Below, piece by piece: positions 4,083 to 5,866 of a stretch of 10,095 bases of DNA. The notes under the pieces were generated by a model. The model was not told the origin of the DNA, did no database searches, and was given only the letters and a program-made list of their open reading frames with translations. Source of the DNA: Deltaproteobacteria bacterium TMED58 (GTDB lineage Bacteria; Desulfobacterota_D; UBA1144); the NCBI GenBank assembly GCA_002167555.2, contig NHDL02000001.1:310384-320478 (forward strand), written 5' to 3'. The translations under genes were made by a program, and so were the position numbers. Each line of letters starts with the position of its first letter. The stretch's first letter is position 1.

Positions 4083-5083
4083 TTAGTCCTATTTTAGAAA
4101 AGCTATGTGAAGGCCAGAATTTATCTGAGGAAGAAATAGAATTAATTTTTTCTTCTATGATGAAAGGAGAGCTGAGTGACATACAATCCTCATCATTCCT
4201 GACTGCTTTAAAAATAAAAAAACCTTCGGCAGATGAAATTTTTTTCGCATCAAATGTACTTTTGAAGAACCTTGATGATGTTCCGAATCATAGCATGGAA
4301 CTTTTAGATCTTTGCGGAACAGGTGGAGATTCTAAGTCAACCTTGAATGTCTCAACTATAAGCTCTCTTTTACTAGCTTCATTAGGAATAAAAATCGCCA
4401 AACATGGTAATAGATCCGTTTCGAGTAAAGTTGGTAGCGCAGATTTAATAGAAAAGCTTGGATTATCTATGGATGTCGATTTAAATGAATCATTAAGCTC
4501 AATTAAAAATACAAATTTTTCTTTTCTTTTCGCCCCCAATTTTCATAAATCAATGAAAAATGTTTCTCATATAAGAAAAGATTTAAAAATGAGGACAATC
4601 TTTAATATTTTAGGTCCATTGGTGAATCCACTAAGGCCAAAATCTCAAATAATGGGAGTATATGATATCGAATTAGTCCCTATTATGGCAAAAGTTCTTC
4701 AAAAACAGGGAGTAAAAAATGCATTGGTGGTTCATGGGCTTGATGGTATGGACGAGATATCTATTTGTAGTAAAACTTTTATAGCAGAGGTAAATGGTAA
4801 AGAAATATTAGAATATGAATTTAATCCTGAGGATTATGGTTTCAAGCTGTCATCTAGTGAATCATTAGTTATTGAATCTTCAGATCAATCAAAAGAAATC
4901 ACTGATGGAATATTTAATAATAAAATAAAAGATTCTCGAAGAGATATATGTATATTAAATGCGGGTGCGGGTTTATACATCTCTGGAAATGCAGAATCAT
5001 TAGAGGATGCTTTTGTCTTAGTTGAATCAAAATTAGACTCTGGTGAAATAAACGCTTCTTTCCAAGAGATTTTAGCGAAATAA
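4079..5083 (+). CDS. trpD: Anthranilate phosphoribosyltransferase
   Basis: It joins anthranilate to phosphoribosyl pyrophosphate, the second step of tryptophan synthesis from chorismate. The 334-residue product has the full motif set: CGTGGDSKSTLNVST at 79-93 (pyrophosphate loop), KHGNRSVSSKVGSAD at 108-122 (anthranilate side), FAPNFHKSMKNVSHIRKDL near 157, RTIFNILGPLVNP near 178 and DGMDEIS near 222, whose Asp-Glu pair binds magnesium. The frame runs back to an ATG at 4028, but that adds 17 unrelated residues inside nusB. The ATG at 4079, which forms an ATGA overlap with the nusB stop, gives the normal TrpD N-terminus and is preferred. It is not fused to the TrpG amidotransferase. The last base of its stop begins the trpC start (TAATG), so translation of the two is probably coupled. 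Confidence 0.96.
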   Translation: MISPILEKLCEGQNLSEEEIELIFSSMMKGELSDIQSSSFLTALKIKKPSADEIFFASNVLLKNLDDVPNHSMELLDLCGTGGDSKSTLNVSTISSLLLASLGIKIAKHGNRSVSSKVGSADLIEKLGLSMDVDLNESLSSIKNTNFSFLFAPNFHKSMKNVSHIRKDLKMRTIFNILGPLVNPLRPKSQIMGVYDIELVPIMAKVLQKQGVKNALVVHGLDGMDEISICSKTFIAEVNGKEILEYEFNPEDYGFKLSSSESLVIESSDQSKEITDGIFNNKIKDSRRDICILNAGAGLYISGNAESLEDAFVLVESKLDSGEINASFQEILAK

Positions 5084-5866
5084 TGGATATTTTAGAGGAA
5101 ATAATTTTAAATAAAGAGAAAGAGGTTTCTTTATTAAAAAAAAGTTTTCCTGTTGAAGATTTATTGACTGGCATAAAGAATAAGAAATATATTAAAAGAA
5201 ATTTCCATGAATCACTTTTGGAAAAAAAAAACTACAAATATTATCGCAGAGATAAAAAAAGCATCCCCATCAAAAGGGATAATACTAGAAGATTTTCAAC
5301 CTTTAAAAATTGCTTTAGAATATGAACTAGGAGGAGCATCTGCCATTTCAATACTAACAGATGAACCTTTTTTTAAGGGTAAGATTGATTATATTCCCTC
5401 CGTGCGTATGATAACTAAAATTCCACTATTAAGAAAAGATTTTATTATTGATGAGTACCAGATAATACAAAGTAGATTCTATGAGGCAGATGCAATACTT
5501 CTAATTGGCCGTGTTCTTTCACAATCTAAATTAAATAAACTATTTAAACTTGCGACGGAATATAACCTTGATGTTCTATATGAGGCTCATAATGAAGAGG
5601 ATTTAGACAAAGGTGTTAGTGCAGGAGTAAAAATCTTTGGTATTAATAATAGAGATTTATCAACTTTTAAGGTTAGTAATAAAAATATATTAGATCTTCA
5701 TAATAAAATTCCTGTTGATAGTATTTTAGTTAGTGAGAGTGGAATTACTAAATCTGAGGATATCGCTGATTTAAAAAAAGAGGGTATTAATAATTTCTTA
5801 ATTGGAGAAAGTATTATGAAAGCATCTGACAGGGTAGAATTTATTCAAGAATTAATTAAATCTTAA
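5083..5866 (+). CDS. trpC: Indole-3-glycerol phosphate synthase, interrupted by a frameshift at a run of ten A's
   Basis: It closes the indole ring of carboxyphenylaminodeoxyribulose phosphate in tryptophan synthesis. The gene is split: the first frame runs from ATG 5083 through residue 49 (...FHESLLEKK) and, if read on, stops at 5325 after 80 codons; the second frame carries the rest from [10 protein letters not shown] to the stop at 5864. Skipping one A in the tract 5222-5231 joins them into a 260-residue protein, exactly a normal TrpC length. The joined protein has every catalytic residue I would expect: E56 and K58 in [12 protein letters not shown]118 in LLRKDF, E167 in LYEAH, N188 in GINNRDL, and E218-S219 in VSESGI. 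Nothing else is degraded, so slippage on A10, an assembly error or a very recent mutation are the options. The second frame's internal ATG at 5207 has no ribosome-binding site. The 3' end overlaps obgE by 11 bases. Confidence 0.88.
5222..5231 (+). repeat. A10 homopolymer at the trpC frameshift
   Basis: Ten consecutive A's follow GG and precede CTAC. Every other A or T run I found in the window is 8 or shorter. The two halves of trpC meet in frame if this run is read as nine A's (or twelve). Runs of nine or more A's are known sites of RNA polymerase slippage, and also of sequencing and replication indels. Confidence 0.9.

Follow-up and report, generated by a model that had tools for sequence, protein, structure and literature searches.

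Frame change at a ten-adenine tract in trpC of a marine Dadabacteria draft genome: a probable homopolymer-length error in a lineage with conserved poly(A) tracts

The trpC locus and its A10 tract

Here we describe a frame change in trpC, the gene for indole-glycerol phosphate synthase, in a metagenome draft of a marine Candidatus Dadabacteria (UBA1144 type). The stretch analysed (the window, 10,095 nucleotides) carries trpC directly downstream of trpD, an arrangement also found in relatives, and trpC is complete apart from one frame change at a run of ten A residues (A10). The features of the locus, in window coordinates, are as follows.

4028..5083, plus strand: trpD, intact; ORF of 351 aa from TTG
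5083..5866, plus strand: trpC as a whole, complete apart from one frame change at the A10
5083..5325, plus strand: trpC 5′ frame, 80 aa; N-terminal part as far as the tract, followed by out-of-frame codons ending with the TGA at 5323-5325
5207..5866, plus strand: trpC 3′ frame, ORF of 219 aa; barrel and all catalytic motifs
5222..5231, plus strand: A10 tract, site of the frame change; relatives have no A tract there
1240-1557, minus strand: ORF of 105 aa, overwhelmingly E and D, beside a solute-binding protein gene

The TAA of trpD and the ATG of trpC overlap by one base, and the true start of trpD probably lies further in than the TTG of the 351-aa ORF. In trpC the 5′ frame aligns with relatives as far as the tract, while the downstream frame is open from about 5177, and the A10 sits within the overlap of the two. 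Joined across the tract, the frames encode 260 aa, the same length as TrpC of the congeners. The downstream frame matches the Pfam IGPS family (PF00218) with 264 bits over model positions 45-254 of 254, and the catalytic motifs, VSESGI among them, all lie 3′ of the tract; this match and these motifs identify the product as TrpC. A preliminary description of the window had called trpC intact but for a single frameshift exactly at the A10, with a 260-residue product that keeps all catalytic residues, and the frames, the coordinates and the Pfam match bear this out. It is the only trpC copy of the host.

The A10 is also, as that description had it, the longest homopolymer of the window, all others being 8 or shorter. 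Windows shuffled with dinucleotide composition preserved contain 1.49 such A10 runs on average, and by this measure the A10 is nothing out of the ordinary; yet the whole genome (1.01 Mb) has just 12 runs that reach a length of 10, together with 123 A9 runs. Long A runs are thus strongly avoided in the host genome, as has been reported for slippage-prone runs across many bacteria (PMC1088944). Given this avoidance, an A10 within a broken core gene is no accident of base composition.

trpC and the tryptophan pathway in relatives

The preliminary description proposed that the same site be compared in relatives and that other trp genes be sought elsewhere in the genome. In all 13 family relatives compared (4 from the same genus and 9 others from the family) trpC occupies a single open frame, which leaves no sign of breakage at several positions. 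In the 11 relatives whose site was read, A runs reach a length of 6 at most over the 20 codons upstream of the conserved motif, and in the alignment the residue spacing at the tract site is identical between host and relatives. A scan of viral contigs found no trpC site with any run length, and the genome collection searched contained no record of the same species. Measured against other genera, host TrpC is as distant as the intact TrpC of the congeners, both before and after the tract.

Genes rescued by slippage are expected to carry a single indel in an A/T run of at least 9 while otherwise intact, to show no acceleration of protein evolution, to keep the frameshift across strains or species, to show it in genomic reads and to give mRNAs of mixed length at the tract. 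Host trpC has the single lesion in an otherwise intact gene and evolves without acceleration, but its frameshift is absent from all 13 family relatives; indirect signs, namely the break rate at long runs and the N sites described below, speak against a frame break in the genomic DNA. Nor does the site resemble a slippage site of the Thermus dnaX type, in which a tract is conserved amid divergent surroundings, the longest run in relatives being 6.

Intact trpA, trpE and trpF were found in the host, and the pathway genes examined are also intact in nearly all relatives, ruling out a lost tryptophan pathway. An old pseudogene is ruled out by the single lesion and the unchanged evolutionary rate. 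Since the relatives are intact and trpC has diverged at the same rate as theirs, the break must be either very recent or not real.

A translational explanation, in which ribosomes shift frame on the A run or start internally at the ATG at 5207 to give an N-truncated enzyme, is highly improbable. The 219-aa frame from this ATG does contain every catalytic motif; however, the roughly 45 N-terminal residues are retained in the aligned relatives, and from the sequence no ribosome-binding site is evident before 5207. A ribosomal shift would moreover have to be +1, while the A-rich sites on which ribosomes are known to change frame, that of E. coli dnaX for instance, go −1 (PMC5009743, PMC3711429).

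Frame breaks elsewhere in the draft

The host genome comprises 1,011,758 bases in 6 contigs, is 92.8% complete and has a GC content of about 31%; the published picture of marine Dadabacteria is one of streamlined free-living heterotrophs (PMC8115339). We took a census of frame breaks over about one third of this genome, chosen for its long A/T runs. Each of the 12 runs of at least 10 was examined, and stretches were taken around most of the 123 A9 runs. A screen for frame switches at any position, covering 336 kb including overlaps and judged by eye, returned among the candidates listed mostly ordinary gene junctions, plus the split genes described here. Besides trpC, five genes are split at runs of A8-A11.

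panC, C5:324648-325482 (L326, L327): run of 10 or more; two PF02569 pieces in different frames
pepA, C4 near 35205 (L006, L352): run of 10 or more; open frame of 400 aa versus 490-521 in relatives
eno, C3 near 212650 (L220, L331): A9; 351 aa versus 428-444; single copy
ntrC-type regulator, L252: A9; pieces match model positions 1-42 and 42-460
murC, L127: A8; pieces match model positions 2-81 and 79-413

A further locus with two frames at an A8 (L228) was excluded from the count, neither piece having a convincing family match. The breaks at runs of A9 or longer all correspond to one A too many, whereas murC, at its A8, is one A short. Among coding runs at least 10 long, the host has 3 of 11 broken (trpC, panC, pepA), compared with 1 of 74 in the stretches read from relatives, a difference in break rate with p = 0.006 (p = 0.06 when all runs of at least 8 are taken). 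The single broken run among those 74 lies in a transporter gene, split at a T11 (L181 position 1501, G011).

The preliminary description listed a very young null mutation among its alternatives, giving tryptophan auxotrophy. On this reading the A10 would be genuine, any slippage too weak to matter and the strain dependent on outside tryptophan. Homopolymers mutate fast, and the only copy of trpC is the frame-broken one. Tryptophan auxotrophy is, however, disfavoured by the intact pathway genes examined in the host and nearly all relatives. Furthermore, trpC has no second lesion, and parallel nulls in eno and murC would be required, which a living cell could hardly be expected to carry. We therefore consider a young null allele improbable.

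The draft itself shows signs of mixed origin. In the sampled host stretches (L002-L014, L125-L154, L213-L254) there are 352 distinct single-N sites, and the 275 Ns that fall inside long ORFs lie mainly at third codon positions (182, against 62 at first and 31 at second positions). Mostly synonymous polymorphism of merged strains would give such Ns, and the draft would accordingly be a strain-composite consensus; the window, however, contains 0 Ns, so that merging at the trpC site itself is an assumption. One Tara Oceans pipeline joined contigs of several samples at 95% identity (PMC5769542), and merging of this kind could be the source of the composite.

On balance we think it probable that the trpC frame change is a homopolymer-length error of the draft consensus. 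The false run length would have arisen from an indel introduced in sequencing or assembly, or from the wrong variant being taken when several strains or samples were merged. The organism would then possess an ordinary intact trpC with an A run of another length and would make its own tryptophan; reads across the tract would be expected to show that different length. We prefer an error because the breaks rise with run length, go in both directions, affect core genes including eno and murC, and seldom occur in relatives. The moxR tract, discussed below, is one A shorter in the host than in its relatives, which also supports a length error. In a survey of 1106 genomes, frameshifts confined to a single genome with intact homologues were judged to be mostly sequencing errors (PMC3711429). 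Against an error stand the lack of Ns in the window and a congener draft (G002) that also has Ns, yet has 0 broken A10 runs among those read.

Conserved A tracts and comparison with known systems

The preliminary description put trpC forward as a candidate for transcriptional slippage, and this proposal has to be considered separately for the lineage and for the gene. Three other genes of the host and its relatives carry long A tracts at corresponding places.

dnaX, host C3:153412-155007 (L189), minus strand: linker tract, A10 at C3:153792-153801; relatives L190-L201
coaBC, host L152 (A9); relatives L156, L157, L160, L172, L268, L276, L285 (A10-A12): tract between domains
moxR, host L252 reverse-complement position 4544, minus strand: A9 at gene end; relatives L168, L174, L176, L265, L272, L289, L305: A10 at gene end

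In dnaX, the linker after domain III contains A9-A11 in 13/13 family genes read, while the linker sequence diverges and even the codon phase of the tract varies (QKK, EKK or KKK). Both other frames stop within 0-12 codons. A tract conserved amid diverging surroundings is likely to be a Thermus-type slippage site for the production of tau and gamma, and the A10 of dnaX has been predicted to act in slippage in nine other species (PMC3711429). In coaBC, a run of A9-A12 lies between the CoaC and CoaB domains, 18-20 codons before GATREYLD, in 8/8 genes listed, and here too the other two frames soon reach a stop; slippage here would yield a CoaC-only product beside CoaBC. The third tract, at the end of moxR, measures A9 in the host and A10 in 7/7 relatives compared. 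The next reading frame encodes a VWA protein whose conservation begins immediately behind the tract, at the first codon, and its differences by codon position number 199:131:542. From the stop that precedes it to a point 40 codons beyond the tract, the VWA frame has no ATG, GTG or TTG in six of the eight genomes. The simplest reading is a likely MoxR-VWA fusion made by slippage, for which an A10 would need one extra A, the favoured slippage product; Magnesium chelatase genes of similar layout use −1 frameshifting (PMC3711429). Judged from these sequences, RNA polymerase probably slips on such runs elsewhere in the lineage, and the conserved tracts in dnaX, coaBC and moxR are a more interesting result than trpC.

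It is against this background that slippage at trpC must be weighed. The A10 would be genuine, and full-length TrpC would be encoded by a minority of mRNAs that had lost one A or gained two, leaving the gene impaired but rescued. The run exceeds the 9-base threshold known for many bacteria (PMC1088944), the remaining pathway is intact with trpC under normal constraint, A9-A12 tracts that look programmed are maintained across the family in dnaX, coaBC and moxR, and the genome avoids long A runs, as expected if such runs provoke slippage. In Blochmannia vafer, a sequenced endosymbiont, eight genes are frameshifted at such tracts (PMC3017870), a number similar to that in the host; the precedent favours slippage and would by analogy speak against an error. 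On the other hand, no relative has the trpC tract, relatives with the same conserved tracts are almost never frame-broken, and murC, broken at an A8, is left unexplained. Restoring the trpC frame also needs a deletion or a double insertion, whereas slippage at A/T runs yields chiefly single insertions: in E. coli and Buchnera transcriptomes it is mainly insertion, 80% of insertions being single-base, while bases are lost from runs less often, and no case of a restored frame was seen (PMC5574713).

Slippage is thus plausible for the lineage; for trpC it is a possible explanation but not the favoured one. The preliminary description had also named an assembly or sequencing indel among the competing explanations, and this is the one we prefer over slippage, given the five other breaks, the composite consensus and the less favoured slippage product that trpC would need. 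The broader proposal that the frameshifts are real, and that a streamlined free-living plankter both programs slippage at conserved A9-A12 tracts (dnaX, coaBC, moxR-VWA) and, having a polymerase that slips readily, tolerates breaks at long A runs in core genes (trpC, panC, pepA, eno), we consider rather unlikely.

Should the trpC break be an artefact, the lineage is not to be annotated as a tryptophan auxotroph, nor should eno and murC be treated as missing; in composite drafts, a frame break at an A8 or any longer run calls for a read check first. Were it real, poly(A) slippage as a buffer against frameshifts, known up to now chiefly from insect endosymbionts, would spread to a free-living plankter. 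Either way, the family-wide tracts in dnaX, coaBC and moxR offer a direct test of the lineage's reliance on transcriptional slippage.

Among known systems, the poly(A)-tract frameshifts of Buchnera and Blochmannia (PMC3017870, citing Tamas 2008 and Wernegreen 2010) share with our case an AT-rich reduced genome, a single indel in a long A run, several affected genes, and an affected gene that is otherwise intact and evolves normally. They differ in that our host is a free-living plankter whose trpC tract is not common to its relatives, a further split gene carries no more than an A8, and the DNA is known from a composite draft alone. The pseudo-pseudogenes at 9-A runs in E. coli and other bacteria (PMC1088944) are similar in that an added A both breaks the frame and makes or lengthens a slippery run; those, however, come from finished isolate genomes, and ours from a metagenome draft. 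Homopolymer errors of draft assemblies resemble the present breaks in being confined to runs, rising with run length, going in both directions and affecting single-copy core genes, although the density here is low (a few breaks in the sampled third of a megabase) and only runs of 8 or more are involved. Transcriptional slippage in Thermus thermophilus dnaX (Larsen 2000, as described in PMC1088944 and PMC5009743) likewise occurs at a coding run of 9 or more A residues. In contrast to that site, the trpC tract is unconserved and must restore a frame rather than end one; the true counterpart of Thermus dnaX is the family's own dnaX, with its conserved A9-A11 tract.
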